Positions 19,411-63,734 of a DNA stretch of 64,000 nucleotides are shown here, in pieces; the first letter of the stretch is position 1; every line of letters begins with the position of its first letter. Where the stretch lies: assembly GCA_022316685.1 (NCBI GenBank), contig JAKJHU010000994.1, positions 1 through 64,000 of the forward strand, read 5' to 3'. The DNA comes from Progne subis subis. Taxonomy: Eukaryota > Chordata > Aves > Passeriformes > Hirundinidae. A model generated the notes under the pieces. It was not told where the DNA came from and did no database searches. It saw only the letters and a program-made list of their open reading frames with translations. Both the position numbers and the translations under genes were made by a program.

Positions 19411-20817
19411 GAACTAAGGCCTCAAGTCAGTCGTAGCCCATGCTAAGTGACACTTTTTCTCAGGGACAGAGGGCATTTCAGCTCAGCCTGGAAGAGACTC
19501 CCACTGGTGTTTCAGTGACAGCTGCTGTTGGGTTTCCCAGAGGTGGCTTGTTTCAGTTTGGTTTTGTGAAAAACAAAACAAAACTCACACAAAACCAAAA
19601 CCAACACAAAAATAAAAAAAACCCACCACGACACAACAACAAAAACAACAACAACAAAAAAAGCCACCACCAAACAAAACAAAAATAAACCCAACAAAAA
19701 ACTCAAACACAGGTGGAAATTATTTTCTTGCAGAGTTTTCCAAGCAAATCCATAACAAAAACATTACCTTGCTTGTCTCACTGGGAATCCTTTTTCTCAA
19801 AGTCCCTCTGCACCTGAGGATGCCAGGGTGTTCTGATGTGACAAGAGATGGAGAAAACCTAGGATGTGCAAAGCACCCAGGTGGGTTGCACGGCAGCATT
19901 CTGGAAGAAAAAAAAAAAGTTCAACGGTTAAGTACACAACACAAAAATTAACTCAACCGGCCCTGGGGAATCCAACAGTGCCTCTCTTTAAAACTCCATT
20001 GGGAATCTCCTTTGGGCAGAGCCTAAATCCCTTACTCAAATTAACCAATGTGCACGTGGAACTCTTGGTGTGGAAGAGTCAGTGCAGTTCCTGTGCCCTT
20101 ATGTACAGAGGATGAAACCAAAATCCAATTTTGCTCCACAAAATCAAAGAGAAAATAATTAGAAGAAGGATATTGTGCACTAGAAAAGATCTGCTTGCCT
20201 TTGAATGCAGTGTCCCAGAACTCAAATATTCATTCAAAAAAGAAAACACACGCAATATGAACAAAAGCACCAAGTATTAGACAAACCTTTCCACACAAGT
20301 GTCATTCTGCAAAATGGTTTCCCTGGGTCTCTTTGCCTCATCCCAAGGCCTTCTCCGTCCTCAGGGTTACTGCACTCACTCCAGGGTACTTGGCAAAAAA
20401 AGGAGCAAGTGGAGGCTTTGTGGCTTCCCTGGCATCTTCTCTCTCCACCAATCCAGGGCAAATCAGAGCCTCCAAGGGGGGCACAGATCCAGCTGCAAGG
20501 GCAAGGACTGTTCCATGTCCACAGAAGCTCTGTGGCAATAGTCAAACCCCAGCAGCAGCAGATTGACGAGTCGAGGTAGGCAAGAACACAGCATCAACCA
20601 GTGGTGCCCATTACCCATCACATCCCTGACATGCAGCTGTCCTGGCCCCCAGAGCAGATATCCACATCTGTCATGAAACCAGGGATGAGAACAACAGCAG
20701 GTCCTTTTTTGCCCCCAAAGAAGAATAAAGTGAAAATAGAAACATCAGCTTCAGGGTTTTTTTGTTGTTTTTTTTAATAGGTGGTCATAACTCCCCCACA
20801 AAGGACACAGTTATTCA
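19411..20817. other. Spacer DNA with a member of a dispersed repeat family
   Basis: An A/C-rich tract lies at 19,563-19,690. From about 19,995 to 20,400 the sequence resembles two separate places in the 35-41 kb block. 'ccattgggaatctcctttggg' matches 38,732, and the stretch from 'aatgtgcacgtgg' through 'agaactcaaatattcattcaaa' to 'actgcactcactccagggtac' matches 36,833-37,200 in the same orientation. No coding function is evident. Confidence 0.6.
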
Positions 20818-22930: not shown

Positions 22931-24850
22931 GGGTGAGCCTCCGGAACATCTACAGTACATCAAGGACATCATTGTGTGGGGGAACACAGCTACGGAAGCG
23001 TTTGAGAAAGGAGAGAAGATCATCCACATTCTCCTGGAAGCCCGTTTTGCCATCAAGAAGAGCAAAGTCAAGGGACCTGCCCAAGAGATCCAGCTCCTGA
23101 AAGTAAAGTAGCAAGACAGACGGCGTCAGATACCTACCGAGGGCATCAATAAGACCACTGCAACATCTCCACAGACCAGCAAGAAGGAAACACAAGCTTT
23201 CCTAGGCGCCATAGGTGTTTGGAGAATGCACATCCCTGAGTACAGCCAGATTGTGAGCCCTCTCTACCTGGTCACCGGCAAGAAGAATGATTTCCACTGG
23301 GCCATGAACAGCAACAAGCCTTTGCCCAGATCAAGCAGGAGATCGCTCGTGTGGTAGCCTTTGACCCTGTCAGGATAAGACCAGAGGCAAAGAATGTGCT
23401 CTACTCTACAGCTGGGAACAATGGCCTGTGCAACAGCCTTTGGCAGAAGGTGCCTGGGGATTCTAGAGCTGAAGTCACAGAGGATCCAAAGCCAACTACA
23501 CTCCAACAGAGAAGGAAATCCTGGCCACCTAGGAAAGAGTTCAAGCCGCCTCAGAGGTGATTGGCACACAAGCACAACTCCTCCTGGCACCCTGACTACC
23601 AGTGCTGGGGTGGATGTTTAAAGGAAAGGTTCCCTCTACCCATCACACCACTGACGCCACATGCAGCAAATGGATTGCCCTCATCACTCAGCGCACCCAT
23701 ATTGGAAACCCAAATCGCCCTGAGATTTTAGAAGTAGTTACTAACTGGCCAGAAAGTCAAAACTTCAATCTCACGGATGGAGAGGAGCAGGAAGAAGTCA
23801 CACGTGCCAAAGCAACTCCACCACATCACCAACTACCAGCCAAAGAAACACGCTATGCTCTTTTCACTAATAGTTCCTGCCACATCCTAAGGAGAAACCA
23901 GAAGGAAAAAACAGCCGTATAAAGCCCCACACTACAAGTTGCACAAGCCACTGAAAGAGAGGGTGGATCAAGTCAACTAACTGAAACCAAAGCTGTTCAA
24001 CTAGCCCTGGACATTGCTGAAAGAGAGAAGCGACCAAAGCTCTACCTCTACACCAAGTCACAGATACACTGATTGGCATTTGCCAGTTCTCTGTGGGCTT
24101 TGCTGGAAAGGTGGAAAAAGGCCAACTGGCAGCGTAGGGGGAAACCAATCTGGGCTGCTGATGAATGGTAGGGCACTGCCAGTTGGGTAGAGAAGCTACC
24201 TGTCAAAGTCCACCATGTAGATGCCCATGTCCCCAAGAGTCGGGCTAATGAGGCGCACCAGAACAACAAACAGGTAGGTCAGGCTACAAAGAGAGAGGTG
24301 TCAAAGAGAGACTTAGATTGGCAACACAAGGGAGAGTTGTTCCTAGCTCCATGGGCCCATGATGCCTCATGTCATCAGGGCAGGGATGCCACCTATAAGT
24401 GGGCACGAGACCGAGGGCTGGATCTAACCATGGACAGCATTCCTCAAGTTCTCCATGACTGTGAGACGTGTGCTGCCATCAAGCAGGCCAAGCGGGTGAA
24501 GCCGCTATGGTATGGTGGGCAAAGGTCCTAGTAAAAGTGCGGGGAAGCCTGGCAGATTGACTACATCACCAATCCCCAAACCCGCCAAGGCAAGCGCTAC
24601 GTGCTGACCATGGTGGAAGCCACCACTGGATGGTTAGAGACCTACCCTGTGCCTCACGCTACTGCCTGGAACACCATGGTGGGCTTTGAAAAGCAAATCC
24701 TGTGGAGACATGGCACCCTGGAGAGAATTGAGTCAGACAATGGGACCCACTTCAAGAACAGCCTCATAAACACCTGGGCTAGAGAACATGGCATTGAATG
24801 CACTCCACTCATGCACCTGGAGGGTCATCAAGCCCCTCCCTTTTGTGGTC
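22931..24850 (+). pseudogene. ERVL-like pol remnant (RT end, RNase H, integrase)
   Basis: In order: the RT active-site region reads 'YIKDIIVWG', where the second-last position of the YxDD box is Lys, not Asp. A connection region follows, frame-disrupted. The RNase H start reads 'ALFTNSS', with Asn at the first catalytic Asp; a later box reads 'YTKS', again with the Asp lost, followed by a stop. The integrase zinc-binding part has 'AHDASCH' and 'CETC'. The core has 'QIDYI' and 'ESDNGTHFKN' with both Asp residues present, but CR1 cuts the frame off before the catalytic Glu. Several frameshifts and stops make it non-functional. From 23,865 on, it lies in the right arm and is the likely source of the left-arm copy, because here pol continues across the arm boundary. 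Confidence 0.88.
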
Positions 24851-25857
24851 ACAGCACCTGCCACTAGACCAAGTTGCACAAAGCCTCATCTAACCTGACA
24901 TTGAACACTGCCAGGGATAGGGCATCCACAACTTCTCTGAAAAACCCCTCTCCCTGCCTTGCCACCCTCACAGTACAGCATTTGTACCTGTTCTGTAATA
25001 GAAACCTGCCCTCTTGCCATTTAAGGCCATTCCCCTGTGTCCTATCATTCCAAGGTCTTGTATATATTTTGTATCAGCCTTCTTATAACCCACTTTCAGT
25101 GCAGGAAGGATGCCCTAAGTGTTGCCAAAGCCTTTTTTCCAGGCTGAAAAACCCCAGCCCTCCCAGCTTGCCTTTCTAGGAGAGGTTCTTTAGCCCTTAT
25201 TGCTCCTCTGGAGTCATTTCAGCAGGTTCATGTCCGTCTCATGTTGGAGGCCCCAGAGCTGGAGACAGCACCCTGCCTCCCAGGAAAACTATTCAGTTCC
25301 CTGTGGATATTTAAGACACGTCATTTCGTGGTCTTCCACGTCTCCAGGTAGATGATACTGGAATTTACTTTTTTTAGGAATGTAGGAGCATTTGGGATGC
25401 TGGCAAAAGGAACTGCCCTAAGTAAAGGTCTTTAGTTTTTCCAGAGAGGAAAGGTTCTCCTAATGCAGCCTCTCTTTTTTTCCCCTCTTCTTGTGTTTTT
25501 TTCTTTTTTGTTGTTTAATTCTGATTGCTGAACTTAGTTTGAGCACTAAATCACTTATACAAAAAGGCAATCAGGAGTTATAGCTGCAGTCCTAGATTTT
25601 AATGTCAGATAAACAAGATGCAGCATCACACCATTATTTCATTTTAATATTACATTAACATATTTCCTCATGGAACTGGTGAAGAGCAACTAAATGCTGT
25701 TTTAGGGCAGGAAAAATAGCAGAACGTGAATTGGGTCTGTTCTTCAGCAATAGCAGACCTTTGAAACTAAACTCACAGCTCAGGAGTGCAAACTTAAGTG
25801 CAATAAAGCTCTGTGGATATAAAAACACTTCACACTGTCAGCTGAACTCAATGTTGT
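23865..25857. repeat. Right arm of the 1,993-bp inverted repeat
   Basis: Reverse-complement partner of 17,418-19,410, collinear with it (positions sum to 43,275). Local differences are mostly single bases; the part nearest the axis (ERVL, CR1) looks more similar than the outermost 250 bp. The outer boundary falls 91 bp from the C5-like exon, so the arm includes intronic-looking DNA next to that exon but not the exon itself. Confidence 0.93.
24851..25279 (-). mobile_element. CR1 LINE 3' region (right-arm copy)
   Basis: Antisense partner of the CR1 at 17,996-18,424: 'cctgccactagaccaagttg', 'gggatagggcatccaca', 'cagtacagcatttgtacctg', 'ccagagctggagacagcaccc'. The junction with integrase sequence on its left is the same as in the left arm. 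Confidence 0.85.
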
Positions 25858-25948
25858 GCTGCATTTCAGTGCGGTCATAATTTTCTTTTCTAGTTCTATT
25901 CACATTTGCAGAAGTATTAAGAAAAATTTCAATTCAAGAGCAACTTAC

Positions 25949-26075: not shown

Positions 26076-26515
26076 CTGGAAACGGAAAACAGAAAGCATC
26101 ACTTGATAATCAATGATTTAGAAATAATACACAGACCACATGCAGATTCACTATGTTTCTGTTCATTGTCTGTTTTCAGAGGAACTCAAAGGTGGAGATG
26201 TGCTTCAGAAGAATTCCTTATTCCCTAAAATTATCTTCTGTTAATCCACCCGTGGCACACATTGCAAAGTTTGGGTGCAGGTTCAGCAAGAAGTAAGGAT
26301 AACACAGATATCTTCAGTAAATGAGGAAAAGGGATCATTAGTGTAGAACATCCTCCCCAGAAGAAATCAATACCACGTTGATCTGCTGGTCTCCATTTGA
26401 TTTCAGTTATTCTGTAACAGATAGCATTGAAGCTATTTCATAGAAATTTCAATCCCAGATTGAAAGGCCATTGTCTCAGATGCTGCCTTTGAATTTCATT
26501 TCCAAGAGCATTTCT

Positions 26516-27227
26516 TGTGGCTGGTTCTGTCCCCGCACCAGGCAGACGCTGACCTCCGGCTAGCTCCGGTCAGCACAGCTACAAGACGTTCCCAGTTCAG
26601 ATACGCACGCAGGTTATCTTTACCTGCTGGCTCGGCTTCTCAGCAGCAGCTGTACCAAATAGCATCGTGACAGCAGTGGCAGTAAGAATAGGTTAGCTCT
26701 CAGTTTAGCAGGTTAAAAGATGTTTATTCTGGCCAAGCTGTGGGAGTCCCACAGCTGGTCCAAACCACAGGCCAAAGAGGCCAGGGAGCGAGAGAGGAGA
26801 GCAGAGCAGAGCAGAGCGGATTTGAATCTCCCTCCTCCACCTTATAAGCGGGGGAGGGGTTCAAGGGAGGTTACAACAAGACTACAAATCAGGGGATTCA
26901 GGGGGTAACAAAGTGTGCCCACCCCCAAGCCTCGGACCACTAAAATCCAGAGCCAAAGGAATTCCCCCCAGGCTACCTATCACCTGAAGCCCTCTCCGTA
27001 TGATTGCTCAATCTTGGGGAGGGGTCCCAAAGTTATAGACAGGCTTCCCCAGAGCCGGGGGGGGCAGAGGGGATGTTCCAAGTCAGGTGAGGGGTGGGAG
27101 GACTGACACAAAACACCTTATTATACAGAAAACACAAAAGGGTTAGAGAACTGGGAATACAGTGAAATGAACTGTAACATAAACTTCCTTATAAAAACCT
27201 AATAAAACAATTCTGGCACCGCCACAA
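26516..27227 (-). mobile_element. LTR-like element with perfect inverted ends and 9-bp flanking repeats
   Basis: The 712-bp block begins TGTGGC and ends GCCACA (perfect inverted 6-mers with TG...CA) and is flanked by AGCATTTCT at 26,507-26,515 and 27,228-27,236. In minus orientation it has a TATA box (plus strand 'ccttataagcg' at about 26,840) and, about 120 bp further on, an AATAAA (plus strand 'tgtttatt' at about 26,720). That order is expected of an LTR. No internal retroviral sequence adjoins it, so it is probably a solo LTR. Confidence 0.78.
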
Positions 27228-27565: not shown

Positions 27566-27609
27566 GGTTCTAGGTACTATCTAGAACCGCGGTTCTAGGT
27601 ACTATCTAG
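27566..27609. repeat. Short direct repeat with an 18-bp perfect palindrome
   Basis: 'ggttctaggtactatctag' occurs at 27,566-27,584 and again at 27,591-27,609. Where the copies meet they form the perfect palindrome CTAGAACCGCGGTTCTAG (27,581-27,598). This lies within about 10-20 bp of where mitochondrial similarity begins. Confidence 0.9.
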
Positions 27610-27616
27610 GTCAGTG

Positions 27617-27762
27617 GAACCTGACCAAATCTCCACCCCCTCCCCCCCCCCCAGTCCTATCATGCTGACTCCTTCCTCTAATACTGATAGCAAGCCAAAA
27701 TCACCTGGAACAAGGAGCCCCCCATCCGCAAACAAATTTGTGTCACAACACTAATCGTAGTT
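27617..27762 (+). pseudogene. ND4: NUMT, left part: mitochondrial ND4 segment
   Basis: The stretch 'ctgaccaaatctccac', a C-rich run (27,636-27,651), then 'agtcctatcatgctgactcc', 'agcaagccaaaatcacctgg' and 'ccatccgcaaacaaatttg' is avian mitochondrial ND4 sequence, NADH dehydrogenase subunit 4, in sense. It uses the mitochondrial code and cannot be translated in the nucleus. It stops abruptly at the 5' LTR of an inserted retrovirus and resumes at 30,963. The expanded C run is a change from mitochondrial ND4. Confidence 0.88.
27757..27762. repeat. Left target-site duplication of the ERV
   Basis: GTAGTT immediately before the LTR; its partner ATAATT is at 30,963-30,968. The two mismatches are both G/A transitions. 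Removing the ERV plus one copy restores a continuous ND4 reading across the site. Confidence 0.78.
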
Positions 27763-28107
27763 TGTTGTAATGCGTTCACTGGGTTTCTATTGCATCAGAT
27801 TTATAACTTTTTTTCTATTTGTCCTTGCCCAGCAGTGCCCATCTCCCCCACAATGAAATGGAACCTAACTCTCTTCCCCTGCCGCTTCTCCCTTACTGGG
27901 TGCTGCCTCTGGGCCCTGCCCCCTGGGGAAAAAGCCCCAACAGGGGAGGCGCCAGCTCTCTCTGGCATTGGCCATTCATTGAGAAAGGTCACCAGCAAAG
28001 CAGGCAGGACTTGAGAATCAAAGCTGTAAAATCCCACCTGGTGCCAGAGAGCAGACTCTCTCACTTTTGCCATCAGCGGTCGTCTAGTCTCATAGGGAAA
28101 TTCTATA
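27763..28107 (+). repeat. 5' LTR of the NUMT-borne ERV
   Basis: 345 bp, beginning TGTTGTAATG and ending TTCTATA (the expected CA end has become TA). It matches the 3' LTR at 30,643-30,962 over its length but has about 25 extra bases near 27,990-28,015. The differences between the two LTRs show that the insertion is not recent. Confidence 0.92.
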
Positions 28108-28109
28108 AC

Positions 28110-28127
28110 TGGCGTGCAATGTGCGGC
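28110..28127 (+). promoter_or_regulatory. Primer-binding site, tRNA-Lys-like
   Basis: TGGCGTGCAATGTGCGGC, two bases after the 5' LTR. It agrees with the tRNA-Lys-type site used by many betaretrovirus-like elements at about 14 of 18 positions, by my reading. Confidence 0.7.
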
Positions 28128-28817
28128 TCCAAGCCACAAAAGGTTCCCAAAAAGCTGGAAGAACCACTTGTGGAGCACGTGGCCCAGGAATCTCACGCAG
28201 CTACGTGAGCCACGACACGTAGCCCAACCACACAGAGACAGACCTATCAGCCTTGGCGTTTGCTGCAGAGTCTCCCAAACACAGGATTCTACAGGCCAGG
28301 GCTACAGTTTCCTCCTTTGCACTCAAAAAACCCATCAGAATGCTGCGAAGAAGCCCCTGGAATGGCAATCTGCTCCCAGAGAAGGTGACCACACGTTTGT
28401 GGAAATATGACCCTGGGAACAGAGACGGGAAGCTCTTTTTGCACCAAAAAGGGTCAGTCTCAGGCAAAAGGAGTGATTGGGAAAGAAAGGAAAGGAACAC
28501 TGGAATTATGGCGAGTACCACTTTCAGTTTTCTAAGGGAAAATCATTTTCAGAGGTGGTGTTCCTCAGGTAAAAATGTTTTTGCTTTCAGAGAGAACCTT
28601 CCAAGTGCTTTAAGGGCACGCTTCTTTCAGCAGCCTGGGGGGGTGGAAAAGGAAACTGTTTCCCCTTTTGGCTTTTTTGTTCTCTCCAGCGAGCTTTTTT
28701 TTCCTTTCAGTTTCTCAGTCACAATAAAGAGGCCACAGAAACTCAAAATCTGAGCCAAAAATGGGTGCTAGGCTGCCTGTGTCTCACAAAATGGTCTATT
28801 AACATATTTCATATGTC
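28128..28817 (+). other. ERV leader region
   Basis: Untranslated leader between the primer-binding site and the first gag start. The 166-residue open frame at 28,253-28,753 shows no gag-like feature and is probably a chance frame. A gag splice donor was not identified. Confidence 0.6.
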
Positions 28818-29833
28818 TTGGATGACGGCAAGACCCATTATTCAAAGAAACAGCTTAAAAAATTAACTCTGTGTTTGTTTTCTTGGTTTCCACACTTATC
28901 ATTAGAGCAAATAAGCTCCCCAGAATTTTGGGAGGCTATAACAAAAAAAATAGTTGAATCTGGCTCCTCTAATAACAAAGAAGATGCGAATTTTGCTTTT
29001 TATAGCTTAAAAGCTAGGTTTTCATCGCAAAAGCAAAATAAAAAGGAAAAAAAAAGCCAGTTCTTTGTGACTTTTCCCCAGCTTGTACCTTTGCAGGCAG
29101 TCCGAGTGCTCAAACCTTCCATCTTAGTGGTCCCCAGGTGGGGAGGAGGGGTCACAAGATGGAGGGGATTCCTCTGTTCAAAGTGGCCAAAGCCATGAGC
29201 TCCCGAGGCATGAGGAGCCTCTCCCTTTGTCTGTCCCCCCTTCCCGCAATTCCTTCTTCTCCCCAGACACCTCCTTCCCTTCGGTGCTGCCCCTGGCACT
29301 GCCCTCTCCCCTCAAACCTCTACCCCCCGACTCTGCCGTGTGTGACTCAAGCCTCCAGCCCCTCCCTGCCCCTGCTTCCCATGGGTTCCCTGCCTACAGT
29401 CCCAGTTCCCACGCCCCGGAGGGAATGGGGGGAGCCAGGAACCAATCCCAGCTTTTCTGCCATCCCTTTCACATATCAACAATCAAAAAGAGGGAGTGCT
29501 GTCCACAGTAATTGGGATCCCTTCCCCCAACAAGCCATTCAGGGCTTATGCAAAGCTCAGACCAAATTTAAAGATGAAAGAGAATACTTCTGCAAACGTT
29601 TGAAAGCAAGTTTAGCAAGAAATGCTACAGTTCCCTTGGACCTCCAAAAAGATTTGCTTCCGGAGCTTTGGCAAAATCCTGAAATGGCTGTTGATAATAA
29701 GAATCTGCCAATTCAATTAGCAACCCAGCCCAATGAGTCTTTCCAACCTTACAGTAAAATAAAGCAGCTTCCATCAGAACCTTTAGGAACATTTGTGGAG
29801 CGGTTAACCCGAGCTATCGAGTTACAAGAATGA
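28818..29833 (+). pseudogene. ERV gag, matrix to capsid, frameshifted
   Basis: The first frame (28,818-29,198) starts with Met and contains a matrix-like block 'LCLFSWFPHLSLEQIS' plus 'FWEAITKKIVE', in the manner of betaretroviral matrix proteins. A second frame (29,138-29,833) begins Pro-rich and ends with capsid sequence: 'AIQGLCKAQTKFKDERE' and a major-homology-like 'PLGTFVERLTRAIELQ'. The frame change near 29,140-29,200 and the stop at 29,831 break the gene. Gag would form the virus core; this copy cannot make it intact. Confidence 0.85.
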
Positions 29834-30300
29834 AGGAGCCCAGGAAGAGGTCCAGGAGGAGATGGCTCTGGCTGATGCAGACAAACAGAGCAAGGCAGCC
29901 ATCCTCAGCCTGTCTATAGAAGCGGCTCCAACTTTACGTGACATGCTCCAGGTGTGTGCCAGGAAGATTCCCTTCAGAAAAGCTCATCCAAACCACAGCT
30001 CCAGAGTCAAGCCGCCACAAAAAGCTGCCGCTGCAGACACTGTGCTTCCTGTACTTTTGCCACGGCCACCGCCCAACAGAGGAACAACGTGTCTCCTGTG
30101 CGATCAGGCTGGACATTGGCTATCTCAATGCCCTTTAAACAAGCAATTTCTGGACTTTCGGGACAATGGGGGCAGGAGGTCTCAAAGGTCCAAAGGGAAT
30201 TTTTCAAAAACACTAGAAAATGTAAATGTTAAACTGAATAATCTTGATTTAACCAGTTCTGCCTTTCAGCAAAATCCACCGGATATGACAGTAAAGGATC
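29834..30300 (+). pseudogene. ERV gag, capsid end and nucleocapsid
   Basis: A third frame (open from 29,862) continues the capsid C-terminal part ('SIEAAPTLRDMLQVCARK') and has a complete CCHC zinc knuckle, 'CLLCDQAGHWLSQC' (C-x2-C-x4-H-x4-C, about 30,090-30,131). One knuckle is visible. It is out of frame with the preceding capsid part. Confidence 0.85.
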
Positions 30301-30629
30301 CAGCCACCAGAGAAACAAAACGTCCTCATGATCAGGTCACCTGGGGTCGTGGGTATGTCTATGTGTCCACTGCCCCAGATCTCAAGTGGGTGAAACCTTT
30401 CATCCTGAAAACTGCAAAACCACCTGCAGAGGGCCCACAAGTGGCCAGTGCTGCCTGGAGGAGGAGAAAGCGCCCAACCTTCTCCTTCTAATTATCATCA
30501 TTCCTTAACAGCGGTTTTCTAAACAGTTTGCACTAGAAGAAATTTATCTTTTGCAATGGTAAAGGTAACTCAAGGTCCAAACTCTGAGCAGCTCCCACCA
30601 ACTGAGCCTTCCTCCTTCTTAATTTAATA
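30301..30629 (+). pseudogene. ERV pol end (integrase C-terminal-like) after a deletion
   Basis: The same open frame runs into 'VTWGRGYVYVST' and 'LKWVKPFILK', which resembles the extreme C-terminal region of integrase (compare 'MGRGYACVST' in the provirus at 58,451-59,020). Everything from protease to the integrase core is missing, so a deletion joined gag to the end of pol while keeping the frame open to 30,491. Confidence 0.65.
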
Positions 30630-30642
30630 AGAAAAGGGGAAA
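30630..30642 (+). promoter_or_regulatory. Polypurine tract
   Basis: AAGAAAAGGGGAA directly before the 3' LTR start (30,643), where plus-strand DNA synthesis would be primed. Confidence 0.88.
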
Positions 30643-30962
30643 TGTTGTCATGCATTCATTGGGTTTATATTGCATTGGATTTGTAATGTTTTTTCTATCT
30701 GGCCTTGCCCAGCAGTGCCCATCCCCCCCCACACTGAAATGTCACCTAACTCTGTTCCCCTGCCGCTTCTCCCTTACTGGGTGGTGCCTCTGGGCCCGGC
30801 CCCCTCGGAAAAAGCCTCGAAAAGGGAGGGGCCAGCTCTATCTGGCATTGGCCAGTCATTGGGAAAGGTCTCCAGCAAAGCTGTAAAATCCCACCTGGTG
30901 CCAGAGAGCAGACTTTCACTTTTGCCATCGGCGGTCGTCTAGTCTCGTGGGGAAATTCTACA
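30643..30962 (+). repeat. 3' LTR of the NUMT-borne ERV
   Basis: 320 bp, beginning TGTTGTCATG and ending TTCTACA. It keeps the proper TG...CA ends and is followed by the right target-site copy (30,963-30,968) and then ND4. Confidence 0.93.
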
Positions 30963-32037
30963 ATAATTCAACCCTTCATCCTCCTAGCCTTCTCAGCCTC
31001 ACAACTAATACTCTTCTACATCGCATTTGAGGCCATCCACGTCCCGACCATGATCCTCATCACCCAGTGAGGGAACCAGCCCAAACAACGAAACACCGGC
31101 ATTTACCTCCTATTCTACACACTTGCCAGCTCATTGCCCCTGCTCATCGCCATCCTCCACCTACATAACCTAATAGGCACCCTAGACTTCCCAGTCCTCA
31201 GACTTTCACACCCAACAATCACCTCCTCCCGAATAGGCATCGCATCAAGCCTTGCCCTCCTAACAGCTTTCATAGTTAAAGCTCCCCTCTAGGGACTACA
31301 TCTAGGACTCCCCAAAGCTCATGTAGAAGCCCCTATCACAGGATCCACGCTCCTCGCCCCCCTGCTACTAAAGCTAGGAGGATACGGCATTATACGAATA
31401 ACCATCCTCGTAAACCTAACATCAAACAACCTCCACTACCCCTTCATTACCCTCGCTCTATGAGGGGCACTGAGAACCAGCACCATCTGCCTACACTAAA
31501 TTGACCTAAAATCCCTAATGGCCTACTCATCGGTCAGCCACCTAGGCCTAGGTGTCGCCGCAACCATCATTCAAACCCAATGAGCCTTCTCAGGGGCAAT
31601 AATCCTAATCATCTCACATGGACTGACCTCCTCAATACTCTTCTGCCTAGCCAACACCAACTACGAACACACCCACAGCCGAATCCTCCTACTAACACGA
31701 GGCATGCAACCTCTCCTACCTCTCATGGCCACCTGATGACTACTAGCAAACCTAACAAACATAGCACTACCCACAACAACTAACCTCAGAGCAGAGCTAA
31801 CCATCATCATCGCCTTGTTTAACTGATCTTCACTCACAACCCTCCTCACAGGGGCCGCAATCCTCCTCACTGCCTCATACACTTTAGACATACTAACAAT
31901 GACACAACGAGGCACTCTTCCAACCCACATCACACCAGTCCAAAACTCCTCCTCACGAGAATATCTCCTCAGAGCCCTACACGTAATCCCCATAATTCTC
32001 ATCTTTGAGCCTGAACTCATCTCCAGCACCCCCATAT
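30963..32037 (+). pseudogene. ND4: NUMT: mitochondrial ND4, main part
   Basis: After the duplicated ATAATT, ND4 resumes ('caacccttcatcctcctagc', 'atactcttctacatcgcattt', 'tttacctcctattctacaca') and runs to its normal end just before tRNA-His. Typical mitochondrial features are C-rich, G-poor composition and TGA where the mitochondrial code has Trp, giving stops in the nuclear code. I did not trace every codon for lesions under the mitochondrial code. No promoter or transit-peptide context is present, so this is a nuclear pseudogene. Confidence 0.95.
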
Positions 32038-32103
32038 GCAAGTAGAGTTGAACCAAAACATTGGACTGTGATTCTAAAAAGAGAAGTTAAAACCTTACCT
32101 GCC
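32038..32103 (+). pseudogene. NUMT: mitochondrial tRNA-His copy
   Basis: It starts GCAAGTA and ends TACCTGC, which can pair as the acceptor stem. The anticodon GTG lies in 'ggactGTGattct'. It sits directly after ND4, as in vertebrate mitochondria. Confidence 0.88.
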
Positions 32104-32159
32104 AAGGGGAGGTTGAACCAACAAGAACTGCTAATTCTTGCATCTGAGTCTAAAACCTT
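32104..32159 (+). pseudogene. NUMT: mitochondrial tRNA-Ser (AGY) copy
   Basis: Contains 'caagaactGCTaattcttgc' with anticodon GCT and the D-armless layout typical of this tRNA. Position between tRNA-His and tRNA-Leu agrees with vertebrate mitochondrial order. Confidence 0.85.
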
Positions 32160-32229
32160 ACTTTCAGAGGATAACAGTACTCCAATGTCCTTAGGAGATG
32201 CTCATCCCCATGCAAATCCAGGTGAAAAT
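32160..32229 (+). pseudogene. NUMT: mitochondrial tRNA-Leu (CUN) copy
   Basis: It starts ACTTTCA and ends TGAAAAT, which can form the acceptor stem with a mismatch. It contains 'aggataacagtactcc', anticodon TAG in 'tgtccTTAGgag', and 'gcaaatccaggtg'. ND5 follows immediately. Confidence 0.87.
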
Positions 32230-33395
32230 AACGGACCTGCCATTAGTCCTAAACACCCTCCTACTACTAACCCTAATAACCCTATCCACAACCCATGATC
32301 CTCCCACTCCCATCACCCAACCTTAAAAACAGCCCAGCCACCATCACAAATACAGGAAAAACCTCCTTCCTCATCAGCCTAATCCCTCTATCAAGCCACA
32401 TCTACACAGGGACGGAAAGTCTCATTTCCCTCTGAGAATGAAAATTCATCATCACCTTCAAAAGCCCAACCAGCCTAAAGACAGACTTCTACTCCCTCAC
32501 ATTCTTCCCCATCGCCCTATTCGTATCCTGCTCTAGCCTACAGTTTGCAACATGATACATAGCCTCAGATCCATACATCACAAAATTCTTCTCCTACCTC
32601 CTCCTATTCCTTATCGCTATACTAATCCTAATTGTCGCCAACAACCCCTTCGTGCTACTCTTCGGCTGAGATGGAATGAGCATTAGATCCTTCCTTCTGA
32701 TCAGCTGATGACGTGGCTGAGCAGAAGCTAATACCGCTGCCCTCCAAGCCGTCCTCTACAACCGAGTTGGCGATGTCAGACTTATTCTCTGCATAGCATG
32801 ACTAGCCTACACCTCAAACCCCTGAGAAATCCAACAACACTCCTCCCCTTCCCAAACGCCCACGCTCCCCCTCCTGGGACTCCTTCTGGCAGCAACAGGC
32901 AAATCCACCCCATTTGGCCTCCACCCATGACTCCCAGCCGCCATAGAAGGCCCAACCCCTGTCTCCGCTCTACTCCACTCCAGCATGATAGTAGTGGCCA
33001 GAATCTTCCTCCTTATCCAAACCCACCCTATATTTAACACTAACCAAACTGTCCTCCCTCTCTGTCTAGGAGCTCTTGCCACACTATTTGCCACTATATG
33101 CGCCCTCACCCAGAATGACATCAAACAAATCATTGCCTTTTCCACCTCAAGCCAACTAGGCCTCATAATAGTCACCATCAGACTCAACCTGCCACAACTA
33201 GCCTTCCTCCATATTTCAACTCACGCATTCTTCAAAGCCATACTATTCCTGTGCTCAGGCTTCATCATCCACAACCTCAATGGACAACAAGACATCCCAA
33301 AAATAGGAGAATTACAAAAAAACGTTACCAACAACTACCTCCTGCCTCAGCATTGGCAACCTAACCTTAATAGGAACTCCATTCCTTGCAGGCTT
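32230..33395 (+). pseudogene. ND5: NUMT: mitochondrial ND5, 5' part
   Basis: It begins at the normal ND5 start position after tRNA-Leu and continues through 'ttcgtatcctgctctagcc', 'ttcggctgagatggaatgag', 'aacatcattgccttttcc'-type blocks and 'tcaactcacgcattcttcaaagcc', breaking off at about 33,395 ('attccttgcaggcttct'). The rest of ND5 is absent. The nuclear-code open frame at 32,985-33,560 is ND5 read through into flanking DNA and is not a gene. Confidence 0.95.
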
Positions 33396-33871
33396 CTGGG
33401 GCAGGGGGGGGTGTGTGTCCAGAGCCCAGCAGCAGCAGAGAGTCCATGCTTGCCTACTGTCCAGGGCAGATCCATCAGCTCCAGGCCAACCTTTAAATGC
33501 CCCCCTAGAGGACTGAGGAGTGGTGAAAGAGGTAAGAAACACTGCCTCACCTGGTTTTAATGGCTGGCCCATTATCAGAAGGCATCAGTCTCCCTCTCCC
33601 CTGGAAGGATAAGAGAAGGATAAAACATGTCCCAAAAAACTGCTTTCCACAGATGAAATAGAACACACATTTTTAGGTTACATAATCCAATACATTCAGG
33701 TTCTTGCTCACAGACTCAGAGGGGCAGGGGACAGCACAGGGAGTGAGTTTTTTGCCATGCTTAAATCACTGACACCAGCTACAGGAATTTTGTCATTTAC
33801 TCAGGCTCTGAGCAAGAAGTTACAAAAGGAGAAGCTCACCATTGCACCTCAGCATTCCTACCAAAGACTGC
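33396..33871. other. Gene-free DNA between NUMT and LTR
   Basis: Begins with a G-rich run ('ggggcagggggggg') at the NUMT end. No exon or clear repeat seen. Confidence 0.4.
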
Positions 33872-35241
33872 TGTGTTGATTTGGCACAGCCTGGTTTTGT
33901 GGTAGCAGCAGGGAACCCACAGAGGTGGCTTCTGGGAGAAGCTGCTAGAAGCTTCCACCGTGTCCAACAGAGCCAGTTGCTGATAGCTCTGAAGATGGGC
34001 ATGCCTCCGGCCCAATTAGAAAGGATGGTAAGCCCTCATGGTCCCATTGACAAAGATTATCAAAGCAGCCCACGGGAAGTTTGTTCCAGGGGTTGGGAGG
34101 CACCGTGCCAGGGCCCATCCCGGCGCGGCACAGGGCAAGGCGCCGCTGCGGCCACTGCCAGCTCCGTGCGGCCACGGCAAAGCCGGCCTTCCCAGCCCTG
34201 CGGCCAGCCATGCCCCTGGCAGGAGGGCAGGGCTGGCAGTGGCAGCTTCTCCTCCAGCAACACGTACCAGGAGAGGCCTTAAACAGCGCCAGGGCCCCGG
34301 TGGCTGCAGCAAAAACACAGCCAGCAACTCCCCGACAGAGAGCCTAAACGAGATCAACTTCCTTGCGGCTGGGGGAGCCTGCAGGGATCTTTGAACTGGT
34401 GAAACATTCTAGCAGTAGCACCTACGGGCAGCAGCTATTCTTCTAGTCAGAGGAGAGGAGGAAGCGAGAATGTGCTGGAAAACAACGTGGCAGCACCAAG
34501 GTCAAAGGAAAAAAGGGGGAGAAGTGCTCCAAAGTGCTCGTCACAGCTGAGATTCCTCTGCAACCTGTAGCGAGGACTGTGATGAAACAAGTTGTGGCCC
34601 TGGCAGTTTACATCAAGTCCACAGAGGACGCAGAGATCCACTCACAGCCCGTGGGGAAAGCACTCATGCCAGAGGAGGTGGAAGCCAGAGTGCACTTTGA
34701 TCCAGTGGGAGACCTGACTAGGAAGAGAGAGAGAGAGAGCCCCTGCTTCTAGAGATAAAGAGAAGCCTTGCTTCCCAACTAGAGCAACCAAGCCCTAAAA
34801 AACCTGCACCCTGGGCATGAGGAACCCATGACACAACAGCTCTGGAAAGGCTCTTTGCCTGTGGGAGGGACCCTACAGCATACCAAAGAAAAAACTCCTC
34901 TCCCTGAGCAAACAGAAAAAACTCCTCAAATAATGAACTGACCAAAACCCCCATGCCATGTCAGTAGGAAAGAGGAAGGGGCTGGGAGAGAAAAAAAAAT
35001 ACAAGATGTTTTAAAGGCTTAATTTACTTCACACTATCATTCTCTGACTCTGATAATAAAAAATTAACTTTACACCTTTAAATTTATACCCATTTTCCCC
35101 TTAGAGTGTTTTTCTCCCAGTTCTTAACTCATGAACCCCCCATTAATTTTTTCTTTTGTCCCCCTCTCCTTAGGTCAACTAGAGCAGCAGAGAGCGAGTG
35201 AACAACTTTCATGGGTGCCTGGGTTTGGCCAATTGCCTACA
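33872..35241 (+). mobile_element. Long ERVL-type LTR
   Basis: It begins 'tgtgttgatttggcacagcc' and continues 'ggcttctgggagaagctgct', 'agcttccaccgtgtccaaca', later 'acgtggcagcaccaaggtcaa', 'cagcccgtggggaaagcac' and 'gatccagtgggagacctgac', with an AATAAA near 35,056 and an end near 'ttgcctaca'. I recognise this order as a long songbird LTR. The open frames at 34,016-34,394 on both strands come from its GC-rich middle. No target duplication was found. Confidence 0.65.
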
Positions 35242-35278
35242 TTGATTAAGATACAGCACCTGTCACAGCCTAAGGCTG

Positions 35279-35468
35279 CACCATCCTCCAGAGCCACAGC
35301 CTGCGAGCTGGGAACCCCCTGTCCCAGCCAAGCACTGGACAGCCTCTCCCACAACCGGGAATTCCCACGGGTGCGTCCACCCGCAGGCAAAGAGGCTTCC
35401 GACTGTGCTGGGACAGGGCCCAGCTTGGACAATTGGGTGCCAGCAACAGGCTGACACAACGTCCAGTG
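35279..35468. repeat. 190-bp core repeat, copy 1
   Basis: It runs from 'caccatcctccagagccac' to 'acaacgtccagtg' and matches 39,203-39,392 without length change, offset 3,924, with only about three to four differences. The neighbouring sequence (to about 35,610) is also related but clearly more diverged. Both copies keep the same open frames on both strands. Function unknown. Confidence 0.9.
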
Positions 35469-38400
35469 TGACAACAGCCGGGCTCGGCTTCCTTGTGGAT
35501 TGGGACCAAAGCCTGGCCAGGGCTCAGGGAACAACCGAGGAGCTGCCAGCGAGGCAAGAGGTCTGATTTTGTGGCTTTGTCCAGCTTTTCCGTTACAGAA
35601 AGGTCAATCCCTGTTTTGTTAGTCAGCAGATACCTAGGCCCTAACACTAACCATCCTGTGGACTTTGTTCATGAATGCGTACAAACACAGCATTAGGCTA
35701 GAAGGTTCCAGCAAGAGCTCAGCTTTGGCTCAAAGGCCTGTTGTGCAGCCCTCAGCACTTCAGCAGCCCTGAGCCATCTCTTAAGCAGAACCAGGACAGA
35801 AGAGCCCAACCACTCCTGACTTCCAGAGCAGCCTCTGCTGCCTTGGCACGCCCCTTCAGTCTTTGTCTTGAAGGTCAGGACCATCCAAGAAACACAAATC
35901 CAGGCTCCACCTACTCCTTGAAGAAGGTCCAAAAGGGCACTAAGCTATCTCAACACAACAGCAAGACCAGGATGCTCTTCCTTGGGCAAAACTCAAGCTG
36001 CTAAAATGCCAGGAACGCCAGACACTGACGGTCCACTGAAGGATATTGATCCAGCTCTACTGACAAGTGGCAGTTGGAGAGGGGAATCTGCAAGGCCTTG
36101 AGAAATCCAAACACAGCCCCAGATGACTTCCTGCTTGTATCATTCAGCTCTGCACTTACCTTGCAGAGTCTTCTGCCAAGTGGTTCCAGATGCTCTGCTG
36201 CTATCAAAAATACTGACATCAACTTATTTCTAGGTTCCAAGAAGTCCCATCCCATCATCTTTGTTCAGATATTCCACATGAGGGTTTCATGTCAAACAAG
36301 CTGTTTTCCCATCCAGATCCTTTCTTAAGCTTTAAGAAGTCCATGATCTCACAAGTACTCACAGAAACTCTCCCAACACCATTTGCTGCCTCTCTCTCTC
36401 TCTGCCAGGGTCCCAAGAAATTCTGTGTCAGTTCTTGTCTGGCATTTGCCAGGGACCTGGAGAGAGAAAGGCACAATCATTACTATTCATTATGGCCACA
36501 GGCTTTGGGCTCAGTGGTGGGTTTCAGCCTTCTGCAAGGAGAGGCAGACACTCCTCACCCCGCTGGAGCCGATTCCTCCAGTCCCCGGTTGGCTCTCGCA
36601 AACCCTTCAAGCCACTCTGCAACACTCAGCACCGCCACAGAGCTACAACACAGCAGCAGTTTATCCACAGGCAATTTCTCCTAGCACACATTTCGATTGT
36701 GTTCCCAAAGCAATCCCAGTGCTTATTTTGACACCTCCAGAAGCATGTGCCCGCATCCACCACGATACCGGATTTTCACAGTTTGCCAATAGGAACACAA
36801 ACAGATTTAACACATTATTCTTCAACCACTTAACCACTGTGCACTTGGACTGCTTCTTGTGGGAGAGTCAACAGAGGGGCACCAGCTTTAAACATGGGGC
36901 ACAAAAACAGAAACCAACTCGTCTCCACCAAATGAAATAAAACATGAGCATAAGTCACATGAAATGATATAGTGTCATAGAAAACACTGATTTGCTTAGA
37001 ACATAGTGCCCAAGAACTCAAGCATCCATTCAAACTAGAAAACACATTCCAAATGGGCCAAAGTAGCAAACGTTAGACCAACTTTTCAACACAAGTGTGA
37101 GCCTGGAAAATGGTTTCTCCAAAGCCTCCTTGTGTCATCCCAAGTGCCTCTCCAGCTTTAGGGGTCACTGCACTCACTCCAGGGCACTTGGAGTAAAGAG
37201 ATGAAAGAAACATAGCCTTGTTGTTTTACAGGTGGTGCTTCCGTCCCCAGAAAGGTCAGAGCTACTTCGGTTCTTGTTTACAAATCTCTTTGGGGCGGCT
37301 TAGAGTGAAAGACTGCAAGAGCCCTGTTTGCAAACACGTACACAGAGAGACCTACAGGCTTCATTTCAAACCATTTGGCTGCAATGAAAAGCAGCTATGC
37401 AGCCACTGGGTTCTTCCTATCTGCTGTCATACAGCAATATGAAAGGATGAAACTATTCCTTAAGGAAACACATAAGGGAAAAGAAACTTTTACAGCTGGG
37501 TCAGGTGTGTCAGGGAGGGCCATTAGCAGGAGAAATGGCTCCAGCTCCTTGCAGGATTTGCCTCTCATCCCCTCAAAGGCCCAGCTGCAGCCTCCAGGCA
37601 GCCAGAGTTCACCCCCCATCTCATGCAGATCAGCCATTCCACTCACAAACCACCTCCTCCCAGGAATGCCCACGTGGCCAGGCCCTCCACAAGCACAGTC
37701 AATGCTCATCAAGGGTCCAGTGTCCCCCAGCCGTTTGACCAAAGCCTTGCAGCACCTGCAACACCCTGGAAGAGAAACACGGCACTTTGTGGAACCAAGG
37801 AACGGAGGAGCTGCCCTGTCCCAGCTCTGCCTCCGCGGCCAGCAGCAGGGCAGAGGCAGCCCTCAACCCCCCCAGGGCTTCCCCTGCAAAGGGCAAACAC
37901 CTGCACCCAGCCAGGGACAGACGTGGCACAGCCTGAACACGCTCAAGGAGCGCCTCCAGAGGGGACAAAGGGACAGCTCCAAACAAGACTCACAAACAGG
38001 GGCTCACAGAAACTCTTCCAACACCATTTGCTGTTGCTCTTGCTGCCAGGGCCCCGAGAACTTCTGGGTCCCCTTCCTTGTCATGTGCTTGTCAGTGACT
38101 CGGAGAAGACAAGGTTACATTCACTTTCTGAGCAGGAGCTGAAACCAACAGAGAAGCACAAAATGAGACAAAAATCCTCTTCTCCCACCCTCTAGAGTGC
38201 CAAGTCAGGACAACCAACAGAACTCAACAGTTCTGGAGGAGGGCAAAAATCCAGGTAGACTTTTAGCTCAAGTAGAAGAAGAGCTTCTCCTTCCCACTCC
38301 TGGGGAAAAACTACACAAACAGGAGAGCCAAGGCACCAAATCAGCTTGGTCTGCACAGCCGGTTTTCTTCCAATGCCCCTGGCAGACAGAAGAGATGGGC

Positions 38401-39202
38401 CCTGCCCATCCCCACAGCACACTGCTCTCACTACAGTACATCACATGATCCACACCCAGCCAGCCCTTCCAAATCCAGAACCCAGCACCATTGTCAACGG
38501 GCTGCCTCACACACAACAGGTTTTTCCAACCGCTGTCACACCTGAACACCTTGGACTCCTCAGGTACTGAGGGACTAGGAGCAGAATCAAGCTCCGCAGA
38601 ATAAAAAGGGTAACACTGCTTAATTCTCTTGCCAATTCCAGTAAGAAGCTAATTTTCAACTGTTTATTATGTGAAAGCAAAGTTAAATAAACCAGCTCTG
38701 GGAAAAAAACCCAACAGCAGCTATCACAAACTCCATTGGGAAACTCCTTCAGGCTGAGCCTAAATCACCTATGTCCCCAGGCATGGAAAAGAAAAAGCCA
38801 AATAAATGAGTCCCGCCTCCAACAGTGCAGGAAGAACAAAGACTGGACAGCACAGATGCAAACAGCTGTGGGAAAACTCCGAGTTGCCACGTTCCAGTCC
38901 TGCTATCCTACAAGATTCAAAACAAAGCACGGTTTTCATCTAAAACTCACAGGATCAAATTTCTGTAAATATTCCATGCAGCACAGGTCCCAGGATGTGT
39001 ACTGGACAGTAGAAGTGTTTGGCCAGGGGGCAGGGGCAGCAGCAAAGACACAGACACCAGCTTCAGGAATGCAGCCTCATCCACCAGAGCTCAAAGCAGC
39101 AAGGAACTCCAAACAACAAAGCCCTGCAATGCCCCTCACCATTGCTACCAAAGACAGCAGCCTTGCAGGGACAGAGACGCAGCACCAGGGACCCTGAGAC
39201 TT

Positions 39203-39392
39203 CACCATCCTCCAGAGCCACAGCCTGCAAGCTGGGAACCCCCTGTCCCAGCCAAGCACTGGACAGCCTCTCCCACAACCGGGAATTCCCACGGGTGCGT
39301 CCACCCGCAGGCAAAGAGGCTTCCGACTGTACTGGGACAGGGCCCAGCTCGGACAATTGGGTGCCAGCAACAGGCTGACACAACGTCCAGTG
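39203..39392. repeat. 190-bp core repeat, copy 2
   Basis: Partner of 35,279-35,468, nearly identical and indel-free. Confidence 0.9.
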
Positions 39393-41076
39393 GGGCAACA
39401 GCCGGGCTCGGCTTCCTCATGGATTGGGCCCAAGGCCTGGCCAGGGCTTCAGGAGCAATCCAGGACTTCCCTTGGACCGTGGACTCCCCAACAAGACCAT
39501 AGGTCTGATTTCATGGTCTCGTCCAGCTTCTCAGGTACAGAAAGGACAATACTTTTCCAACTCCATTTGCTGCTTCTCCCTCTCTCTCAGGGTCCCAACA
39601 AGCTCTGCCTCAGCCCTTGTCCTACCCTTACAAGTCACCTCAAGAGAAGGAAAAAAAAAAAAAAAAAAAAAAAAGGACAATTATTACTACTTACTCTGGC
39701 CACAGACTTTTCACTTACTACACTTACTAGTGGGTTCAGCCTTCTGGAAAGAGAAGCAAAGCTCAGCCTCCTGGGGCTGATCTGTCCATTCCATGGTCTG
39801 CTCTCACAAACCCTTCAACCACTCTGCCAAAGCCTCAGAGCCACAGGAGAGCAGTCCTTAGCCACAGTCACTTCTCCTAACACACATTTCCCATTACATA
39901 TCCAGAGCAATCCAAGCACTGATTGTACACTTCCATACGTGTGACCCAAGATCCCACGCACACAAGCGCACCAAATTCCCACCGTGTGCCAAGAACCTAC
40001 AGGGCACTTTGGATGTATCCTTAAGTACAAAGCACAAGAAGAATAAACCCAATCTTGCTCTGTGAAAACAAACAGTGAAAACTGCAGGAAATTCTTCCAT
40101 AGAACAGAAGACACATACCTTTAACCCAGGCAGGTAATTAACTGCAGGAGGGGACCACCTGGCAGAAGAATGCTGACCAGCCAAACACAGAGCACAGAAC
40201 CAGGGGCTGCCTGAGTGCCTTCAGGCAAGCCTGCTGGATTGAAGGTAAAGCAGCAGGAGGAAGGAACTCTGCACAACTACTTGGTGAGAAATTCCAAGTC
40301 AGAGCTACAATTTAACAGGAAAATTACAAGAAAGACAATAGCACAGAAACACAGGCTGAAACCAGACAATGACCTGACATGCTGTTGCTCAGGGTGGTGC
40401 TTTTCTCTATCATTCACCCCACTGTGTGACCACATCACAGTGCCGAGTCACCCTTCCCTGCAAACTTTTCAGTCTGTAACTTCCATCCCTCAGGAGGAGC
40501 CTGAATTAACAAAAACACCCCAATGCTCCCTGCCCTAAGCACGGATACAGCAACACTACCTGGAAAGGGAACAAAACTTCACAGCTCCCGCCCCAAACAC
40601 AAACCCTGGCCAGAACCACAGACGCAGCAAAAATTCACCGGTTAGAGGAATTAGGGCAGGAAAGGCTCTGTCTCCCATTCCTTGCACAACAGGCTCCAAT
40701 TCCACACTGCAAGTAGGAGTCAGGGCTTTCACTGAAGCCTGAAGAGCCAACCTAATTCTGGTCTAGAAAGGAGCTTCCCAAAGCAGTTATCTGGCCCAGC
40801 AGAGAGCAAAACCCTCTGCACTCTACCAGAGCCACAGGAAACCAAAGCCAAGGGTAGAAGCTGATGCAGAAGATACAGAAAGCAGCACTTCAGCCCTATA
40901 ATGACCAGGAAAAAGCCAAGCTGCAGCAACTCTTGCCTCCTGGGGGAGGCAACAGCCCCCCAGCATTAAACACAGCTTCAGCTGGGGCCACCCAACATCG
41001 GCCCTGCACTGCACCACACACCCAAACATATTGGCTCCAACACAGTTCAAACAACTGAGTTAAAGCACACGCTTAC

Positions 41077-41109
41077 CTCGTTAAACAGCACAAGGGAGGA
41101 GAAGGCCAT
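41077..41109 (-). CDS. Possible 11-codon first coding exon of an unrecognised gene
   Basis: On the minus strand, ATG at 41,109-41,107 opens 'MAFSSLVLFNE' and then meets a consensus donor, GAG|GTAAGC (intron from 41,076 down). The exon is exactly 33 nt, so it ends in phase 0. About 70-110 bp upstream are two CCAAT boxes and a GC box in the proper orientation. That arrangement fits a real first exon, but the sequence is too short to name a family and I could not find exon 2 in the duplicated DNA below. It may instead be the first exon of a non-coding RNA, or chance. Confidence 0.3.
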
Positions 41110-41181
41110 CACACACCAAAGGCACAACCACAAACACCAACTCCCACCCAGCCCTTAGAAACACCCCCCCCCCGGCTCGTG

Positions 41182-41244
41182 ATTGGCTGATGCACAGAGG
41201 CATTCACAGCGCTGATTGGGCCGTGCACCCAGGCCCCGCCCCCC
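41182..41244 (-). promoter_or_regulatory. Promoter-like segment: two CCAAT boxes and a GC box
   Basis: ATTGG at 41,182-41,186 and 41,215-41,219 read as CCAAT on the minus strand; 'ccccgcccccc' at 41,234-41,244 is an Sp1-type GC box. The surrounding 41.2-41.95 kb is CpG-rich compared with the rest of the window. No TATA box is evident, as usual for CpG-type promoters. A start site around 41,110-41,150 on minus would suit. Confidence 0.55.
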
Positions 41245-41311
41245 ACAGGTGCACGGTGTCCCCACCCCGGAGCTCCTGGAGCCGCAGGTGGAGCTGCAGC
41301 ACCGCCTGACC

Positions 41312-41327
41312 GCCGGCAGGGGGCGCT
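41312..41327 (+). promoter_or_regulatory. CTCF-like binding site
   Basis: GCCGGCAGGGGGCGCT closely follows the known CTCF core (a CAGGGGGCGCT-type block). It lies about 70 bp upstream of the GC box, between the promoter-like segment and the YY1-motif repeat array. Binding cannot be shown from sequence. Confidence 0.55.
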
Positions 41328-41879
41328 GCCGGAACCCCAGGACAGCCCCCACACACTTGCAGGCAAAAACCCGTTTCTGCCACTCTTAACAAATCGACTG
41401 GAGCCACTGTTTCAACTCCATGATAACTACTTAAACATTGTTTCAAGAATCCCAGGGGACACCGGGCTTGGAACTCTCAGCAACTGCTCAGCTTGGCTAC
41501 TTCAAAGATTTCCCCACCCAGGAAACCGAGCGCTCCCAGCCCCTCACGGCACATCTGCTACAAAACCGATCAAACCTTGCACACACAGAGGACACGAGGC
41601 TGCTGCGAGTCCTCTATGGGCGGCAGCAGCAGCTCCCGGGGACGTGAACAGCACCATCCCCGCTCCCAGCTGGCTCAGGGTGGGAGCAGGGGGGTGAGTG
41701 GGGACGGCGGGCAGTGGCGGGGAGGGGAGGGGACGGGCGCCCGGCACAGCACCGGGACCACTCCCGGGACACCGGCTGCGGCGGGACCTTGGCCCATCGG
41801 GGTGTCCCCGCCGCTGCCTGTTGGTGCAGGCCCGGCTCCTGCCCGCCCGCAGTGCCGCTGAGCCCCCAGCCCATCCCTC

Positions 41880-63681: not shown

Positions 63682-63734
63682 AATAAACACAAAACAGGGA
63701 AAAGGGAAAGGAAAAACCTCACCAAACTGCTTTC

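Follow-up and report, generated by a model that had tools for sequence, protein, structure and literature searches.

Sequences that enter a nuclear genome are not always confined to the place at which they arrived. In the domestic cat, a 7.9-kb segment of mitochondrial DNA (mtDNA) known as Numt is present in 38–76 tandem copies (Lopez et al., 1994, as described in the part of PMC2820518 consulted), and according to the same part of that source nuclear mitochondrial sequences (NUMTs) also duplicate after insertion within larger segments, that is, as segmental duplications. Proviruses can multiply as well: the HERV-K (HML-2) proviruses K111 and K222 have spread through human pericentromeres (PMC4425911, in the sections consulted). 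Here we describe a songbird locus at which the two meet. It lies within bases 1–64,000, referred to below as the window, of contig JAKJHU010000994.1 (C2891; 100,880 bp) in the 1.17-Gb assembly GCA_022316685.1 of Progne subis subis, where a NUMT extending from ND4 into ND5 is split by an endogenous retrovirus (ERV) with long terminal repeats (LTRs). Amplified NUMTs and duplicated proviruses are each known kinds of locus, and the songbird case combines both. A literature search of titles and abstracts, with most subscription journals outside its coverage, returned no report of a combined NUMT-ERV amplification.

The history that we regard as very probable starts with a single transfer, in which a songbird mtDNA fragment spanning ND4 to ND5 would have entered the nuclear genome once. 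The NUMT locus would then have been duplicated, and a betaretrovirus-like, internally deleted LTR element would have integrated at the hexamer ATAGTT in ND4 of one of the duplicates, doubling these 6 bp. Amplification of the ERV-bearing version within a segment of roughly 24–40 kb, presumably by unequal exchange or segmental duplication, would have produced tandem and dispersed copies, with at least two ERV-free copies surviving. The copies would afterward have diverged and exchanged sequence by gene conversion, and some would have lost the body of the provirus through LTR-LTR recombination.

The split is evident from the anatomy of the NUMT, all of which lies on the plus strand. The upstream ND4 piece occupies 27,622–27,762; its left limit is approximate, the matches of other copies starting at 27,622 or later, and a poly-C run at 27,642–27,652 disrupts its frame. 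The downstream ND4 piece (30,969–32,045, right limit approximate) has six in-frame stops in the window copy and is followed by a decayed cluster of tRNA-His, tRNA-Ser(GCT) and tRNA-Leu(TAG) (32,046–32,245, limits approximate) and by the 5′ part of ND5 (32,246–33,399, start approximate). The ND5 piece is recognized by its translation and by ND5 protein matches, is repeated in the genome and carries frameshifts and in-frame AGA codons; the NUMT ends near 33,399. When the flanks are joined (27,601–27,762 to 30,969 onward), a single frame in the vertebrate mitochondrial code (code 2) is restored, which reads QAKITWNKEPPIRKQICVTTLIV up to the junction and VQPFILLAFSASQ beyond it. An earlier note on this DNA had claimed that ND4 is interrupted at 27,762 and continuous without the insert, and the restored frame bears this out; a failure of ND4 to align continuously once the insert is removed was looked for and not seen. 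The note had also placed the start of the NUMT at 27,617; the mitochondrial match begins near 27,622.

The order ND4, tRNA-His/Ser/Leu, ND5, read in code 2, is that of mtDNA, while the setting is nuclear and the sequence decayed: a 100.9-kb contig with other repeats, and a window ND4 broken by its six stops. A tRNA search with a mitochondrial model recovered only tRNA-Ser in the window and all three tRNAs (His, Ser and Leu) in the copy C2680a, and a scan with the bacterial code found no tRNA in the window. Translated with stops as X, the window ND4 is 79–82% identical to passerine ND4 over 98–100% of the query among the best 120 of 7,999 scored proteins, the top match being Hirundo rustica gutturalis (82%). 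The ND5 protein search admitted candidates of at most 1.75 times the query length, which leaves out typical bird ND5 (about 605 residues), and was not used for placement. In a protein tree of 20 NUMT copies and 10 mitochondrial proteins, the copies form one clade with support of 100/99, which indicates one transfer. The top ND4 matches are swallows, but in this tree the NUMT clade does not fall within the three swallows included, so that only a songbird origin is claimed.

The insert in ND4, at 27,763–30,962 (3,200 bp), is an internally deleted LTR provirus. The earlier note had described it as a 3.2-kb retrovirus, a description upheld by two LTRs, a target-site duplication, a primer-binding-site-like sequence and a polypurine tract. 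The 5′ LTR (27,763–28,107, plus strand) is a direct repeat of the 3′ LTR (30,643–30,962, plus strand), which is without a 23-bp segment present in the 5′ LTR. The LTRs were also said to have TG...CA ends; the LTRs are there, but the 5′ LTR of the window ends in TA; of 19 copies listed for this junction, all except the window and C2891b (17 copies) have CA. After the 5′ LTR lies the primer-site-like sequence TGGCG... (28,110–28,130, plus strand; read in 19 copies), which we take to resemble a tRNA-Lys site, with mismatches. The polypurine tract AAGAAAAGGGGAAA (30,629–30,642, plus strand) precedes the 3′ LTR and is found in 28 copies with few changes. Between them, the 2.5 kb of internal sequence has gag and integrase-tail matches only, each of them below its Pfam cut-off: a gag capsid remnant at 29,564–29,830 (weak Gag_p24_C match, E 0.0016), a nucleocapsid zinc-knuckle remnant at 30,081–30,230 (zf-CCHC_2, E 1.6e-4) and a possible integrase C-terminal remnant at 30,300–30,488 (weak IN_DBD_C match, E 0.011), all on the plus strand. 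The integrase-like remnant follows so soon after gag that there is no space for the remaining pol or env, and since a full coding region is absent the element is considered internally deleted. The capsid remnant had no match among solved structures, and an Rfam search of the window gave nothing at gathering scores. TG...CA ends, a 6-bp target duplication, a Lys-like primer site and gag remnants are also features of avian class II (betaretrovirus-like) LTR elements with internal deletions. The songbird ERV resembles them in its LTR ends, 6-bp duplication and gag remnants and may do so in its primer site; its assignment to class II, which draws on domain matches below threshold, is tentative.

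The target site of this insertion can be read in copies in which it is unoccupied. In the window, the target-site duplication is GTAGTT on the 5′ side (27,757–27,762) and ATAATT on the 3′ side (30,963–30,968), both on the plus strand. Two copies in the same genome, C2287 and C269, are empty at this position and both read TAATC-ATAGTT-CAACCC; they keep flanks of the same locus, corresponding to window 26,100–26,477 in C2287 and 27,445–27,576 in C269. The original target was thus ATAGTT, and GTAGTT and ATAATT each represent one later transition. The earlier note had read the two hexamers as a 6-bp duplication with two transitions, and the empty copies agree and polarize both; they also sustain its order of NUMT first and ERV second by presenting an unoccupied target. 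The 5′ hexamer GTAGTT was seen in the window and C2276a only, among the 5′ junctions read, and the 3′ hexamer ATAATT likewise in these two only, of 32 LTR-bearing junctions. Ten copies have ATAGTT on both sides (C2276b, C2276c, C2891b, C2642f, C2642g, C2442b, C2576a, C2442m, C1712 and C2642a); others have AGAGTT, ATAGCT or ATAATT on the 5′ side and ATAGTG or ATACTT on the 3′ side, and C2576b and C2642b have a 2-bp loss. Of the 34 copies that retain the junction, two are empty and the other 32 have LTR joined to ND4 at the identical base; chance placement is excluded. Elsewhere in ND4, C2287 and C269 each bear a separate antisense LTR of the same ERV family; the element in C2287 is LTR-sized and flanked by CACAGC/CACGGC.

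The locus is one of many. Forty-one pieces matching the ND4 segment, merged by position, give 37 copies on 13 contigs. This is a lower bound, and ERV and ND5 searches show more partial copies. Many of the 37 lie in clusters or arrays with a spacing of about 24–40 kb, and several of the contigs with the unit are short (34–119 kb). The provirus is present in 28 copies, as judged by a 3′ LTR preceded by the polypurine tract; four have a solo LTR (C2442m, C1712, C2642a and C2576c), two are empty, and in three (C2442x, C2442y and C2442z) the junction was lost by a deletion from about 27,574 to 31,098. Both LTRs were read in 26 of the 28 proviral copies, two of these only in part, and no 5′ LTR was found within the stretch examined in C2442a and C2642e. 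Neighboring units on C252 recur at an offset of 25,976 bp and share 99.4% identity across 9.9 kb, which describes a repeated unit of about 26 kb that is mostly non-mitochondrial. Mapped from one C252 unit, the repeat spans 19,408–44,051 of the window, where window-specific segments break it up, and some 4 kb of the C252 unit is unmatched there. Outside the unit, window 9,000–12,000 has, besides a dispersed repeat of ~200 bp, a 98% twin on C2276 as its sole match among the best 40 of 6,170 candidates. The positional twin of the window copy is C2276a, 96.9% identical over 9.9 kb.

The order of events was approached through codons that are invariant in 120 mitochondrial ND4 proteins (the best-scoring matches, not a random sample) and so supply likely ancestral states. 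At codon 276, where all 120 proteins have M, the two empty copies have M as well, and every other copy that can be scored has a stop (33 of 35, C2642e and C2442b giving no data); 30 of these 33 retain the ERV or its LTR, and in three the junction is deleted. A stop occupies codon 110 throughout groups A, B and C (29 copies) and is missing from all six copies of group D; the single empty copy with data has Y here. At codon 337, M is seen in the empty copies and also in C1712 and C2442m, a further 30 copies have a stop, and one has R. The stops at codons 110 and 337 are accordingly absent from the solo-LTR copies C1712 and C2442m and from the empty copies with data, a nested pattern. The empty pair also has the largest mean ND4 distances to other groups (0.079–0.106).

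Several observations weigh against this order. A stop at codon 220 is found in the scorable C1 and C2 copies, one group-D copy and the empty copy C2287, but groups A and B lack it; a stop at codon 267 is shared by C269, C1712 and C2442x/y/z; and C2442x/y/z have P at codon 169, as do both empty copies. Recurrent mutation or conversion would explain these conflicts, but conversion could also have moved codon 276. The protein-tree branch separating 18 non-empty copies from the empty ones is weak (57/39), and an unrooted DNA tree groups the empty pair with the solo-LTR copy C1712 (91/79). The NUMT divergences of the empty copies, 0.062 and 0.053, are no larger than the value of about 0.055 for the ERV. 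A COX1 search of the assembly found no mitochondrial contig, only two fragments on contig C1, both with stop codons, so that the NUMT is placed on a protein tree only.

These points bear most on an alternative in which the ERV entered before any duplication and the two empty copies lost it cleanly, through exact excision or through conversion with an unseen empty copy as donor. Exchange between copies does occur, the empty copies join a solo-LTR copy in the unrooted tree, and codons 169, 220 and 267 have states common to empty copies and some ERV-lineage copies, all of which such a loss would accommodate. It would leave unaccounted for, however, the mitochondrial residue at codon 276 in exactly the two empty copies, and conversion still requires an empty donor. 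LTR elements usually leave a solo LTR on loss, and four copies here carry that remnant rather than a clean site. We therefore consider clean loss improbable, and prefer duplication of the NUMT before the ERV arrived.

Exchange between copies is apparent in the window itself. Over 31,203–31,802 (plus strand; 599 sites), the window ND4 differs from C2891b, 40 kb away, at 4 sites and from its twin C2276a at 31, whereas over 30,963–31,202 (240 sites) it differs from C2276a at 7 and from C2891b at 20; past 31,803 there is no clear preference for either. The 16 sites that unite the window and C2276a against C2891b, C2276b and C2276c all lie outside 31,135–31,908. The window ND4 is thus a mosaic, in which a tract of about 600 bp, common to the window and C2891b and not to C2276a, was probably exchanged by gene conversion, to judge from these differences.

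Changes counted at 224 invariant codons and calibrated against random mutation put the nuclear divergence of the window ND4 at 0.073 per site (95% range 0.048–0.099; 0.070–0.076 under other mutation biases), that of C2276a at 0.080 and that of C1712 and C2442m at 0.056. CpG decay is strong: across 20 copies, Arg codons are changed in 86 of 177 cells vs. 534 of 4,199 at other invariant codons, and 83 of the 86 go to CAN or TGN, as expected from such decay, which biases the estimate upward. All copies should share one transfer date despite estimates of 0.053–0.080. Between the LTRs of the window, whose divergence the earlier note had wanted computed, there are 33 differences at 319 aligned sites (Kimura two-parameter distance, K2P, 0.112), 26 at 299 without CpG sites (0.093), and 32 at 317 in a second alignment (0.109). 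Half of 0.109 (pair bootstrap 0.073–0.150) is about 0.055, so that the NUMT at 0.073 and the ERV at about 0.055 stand in the expected order. With a passerine neutral rate of 2–3 per billion per year, these values would correspond, very roughly, to 24–36 million years for the NUMT and 18–27 million years for the ERV. Because NUMT estimates from single copies (0.053–0.080) straddle the ERV value, the clocks alone do not separate the two events. The LTR distances are also variable: 26 LTR pairs of the same insertion, of which two were compared over 84 sites and another two over 214, range from K 0.040 (C2587) to 0.128 (C2276a), with partly overlapping bootstrap ranges (C2587, 0.021–0.065; C1335a, 0.036–0.091; C2276a, 0.091–0.174). 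The LTR tree unites 5′ and 3′ LTRs of the C1335/C2885/C2587 copies on a separate branch (99/98, length 0.037). A simple clock could not produce such a branch, which points to conversion beyond noise.

The earlier note had envisaged a single-copy NUMT with a nested ERV that carries two independent clocks in one locus. The local anatomy fits this proposal, and the two divergences of the window fall in the right order, but it does not survive the finding of at least 37 ND4 copies, of LTR distances from 0.040 to 0.128 for one insertion, of a mosaic ND4 in the stretch intended for the NUMT clock and of NUMT estimates that straddle the ERV value. Copies created by the assembly could in principle rescue it, and mean ND4 distances of 0.06–0.11 between copy groups argue otherwise; we regard a single locus as very unlikely.

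That the unit copies descend from one insertion is also suggested by the ERV family at large. With internal positions 28,110–29,450 as query, 40 matches were scored of 805 first-look candidates: 24 lie at unit copies with 89–100% identity at the DNA level, one of them (C2680:1,095) a further unit copy judged by its spacing, and 16 lie elsewhere with 81–86%, while the proviral copies C2576a-b and C2642b-d are absent from the 40. The family is dispersed, and from the gap between 89–100% and at most 86% the unit copies are best read as descendants of one insertion. That members of the family inserted independently at this hexamer in several NUMT copies is scarcely credible, for although the family is multicopy and has inserted antisense into ND4 of C2287 and C269, the unit copies stand apart from the other scored members in identity and share both the exact junction base and the stop at codon 276. 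Two of the 16 non-unit matches adjoin ND5 fragments on C2276 (4,410,170–4,413,494 and 5,300,463–5,303,549), where an ND5 piece is followed ~1.2 kb later by a family member in the same orientation.

Other features of the unit and its surroundings vary among copies. A later insertion occupies 26,516–27,226 of the window; of 20 other mapped copies, C2276a alone has it at this position, the matches of the rest jump from 26,515 to 27,227 or fall outside, and C2442m has a 68% similar antisense segment nearby. The segment 33,645–33,988 is skipped by 15 of 20 other mapped copies and continuous in C2276a and C2642f, while the other three have no match running across it. To the left of the NUMT, a short repeat varies in number among copies. 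Contig C2891 is colinear with C2276 at about 2.42–2.52 Mb with about 97–98% identity, and may be either a segmental duplicate or a divergent haplotype. At 44,489–45,202 there are 13 tandem copies of a 55-bp repeat, with related sequence beside the NUMT in C269 and C2442x/y/z, and a 2-kb inverted repeat, 96.5% identical, has its left arm at 17,403–19,413, with an integrase-core match, and its right arm at 23,862–25,872, within the unit. On the minus strand at 57,982–64,000 there is a second provirus-like stretch, bounded by repeats (57,982–58,227 and 63,755–64,000) that are 82% identical, with RVT_1 and RVT_thumb matches at 59,017–60,258. None of eight open reading frames tested (33,812–41,858) had a Pfam match at E 0.1, a test that spliced genes could escape. 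A home in an olfactory-receptor-rich migration block such as MARB of Phylloscopus (PMC13347281, in the part consulted) was considered and is not supported: none of 138 scored receptor matches lies on the 13 copy-bearing contigs, and one lies on contig C2, which has two ND5 fragments. The assembly has 3,796 first-look olfactory-receptor candidates, the 138 scored ones being mostly on small contigs, and the part of PMC9883250 consulted for this idea holds nothing on the NUMT-ERV unit. A CHD1-like domain search for a W-chromosome location gave three matches, none on a unit contig.

The nested arrangement of NUMT and ERV makes an unusually good test bed for dating. LTR-LTR divergence is a standard method for dating ERVs, and as all copies have one true age, the spread of 0.040–0.128 gauges how badly it can do, while the mitochondrial passenger provides known ancestral residues. 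The amplified unit can probably be regarded as a replicated natural experiment on molecular dating, in which one insertion is dated 26 times with LTR distances about three-fold apart, partly through sampling noise and partly through conversion, and in which the sequence of events is fixed within a single species by ERV-free copies and known mitochondrial codons. There is also a practical warning, in that the nuclear copies of ND4 in Progne subis subis, at least 37 in number, could all serve as templates for ND4 primers.

The locus joins two described kinds of amplification. Like the cat Numt, the songbird NUMT is present in dozens of nuclear copies, some in tandem, with 37 copies in several clusters and the 20 tested forming one clade against mitochondrial proteins. 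Unlike the cat Numt, in which the mtDNA segment itself is the repeat, the songbird NUMT is not the repeat unit but a passenger in a unit of 24–40 kb, and it holds a nested ERV with ERV-free copies in the same genome. Like the NUMTs in segmental duplications noted in PMC2820518, it would have been duplicated after insertion within a larger segment; it differs from them in having many more copies, arrays and a nested second insertion. As with K111 and K222 (PMC4425911), one provirus has apparently spread together with the repeat around it, through recombination or conversion, with a recognizable target sequence, solo LTRs and LTR recombinants. Unlike K111 and K222, whose flank is centromeric, the songbird provirus is flanked by a NUMT, belongs to a different ERV lineage and is accompanied by empty copies in the same genome.

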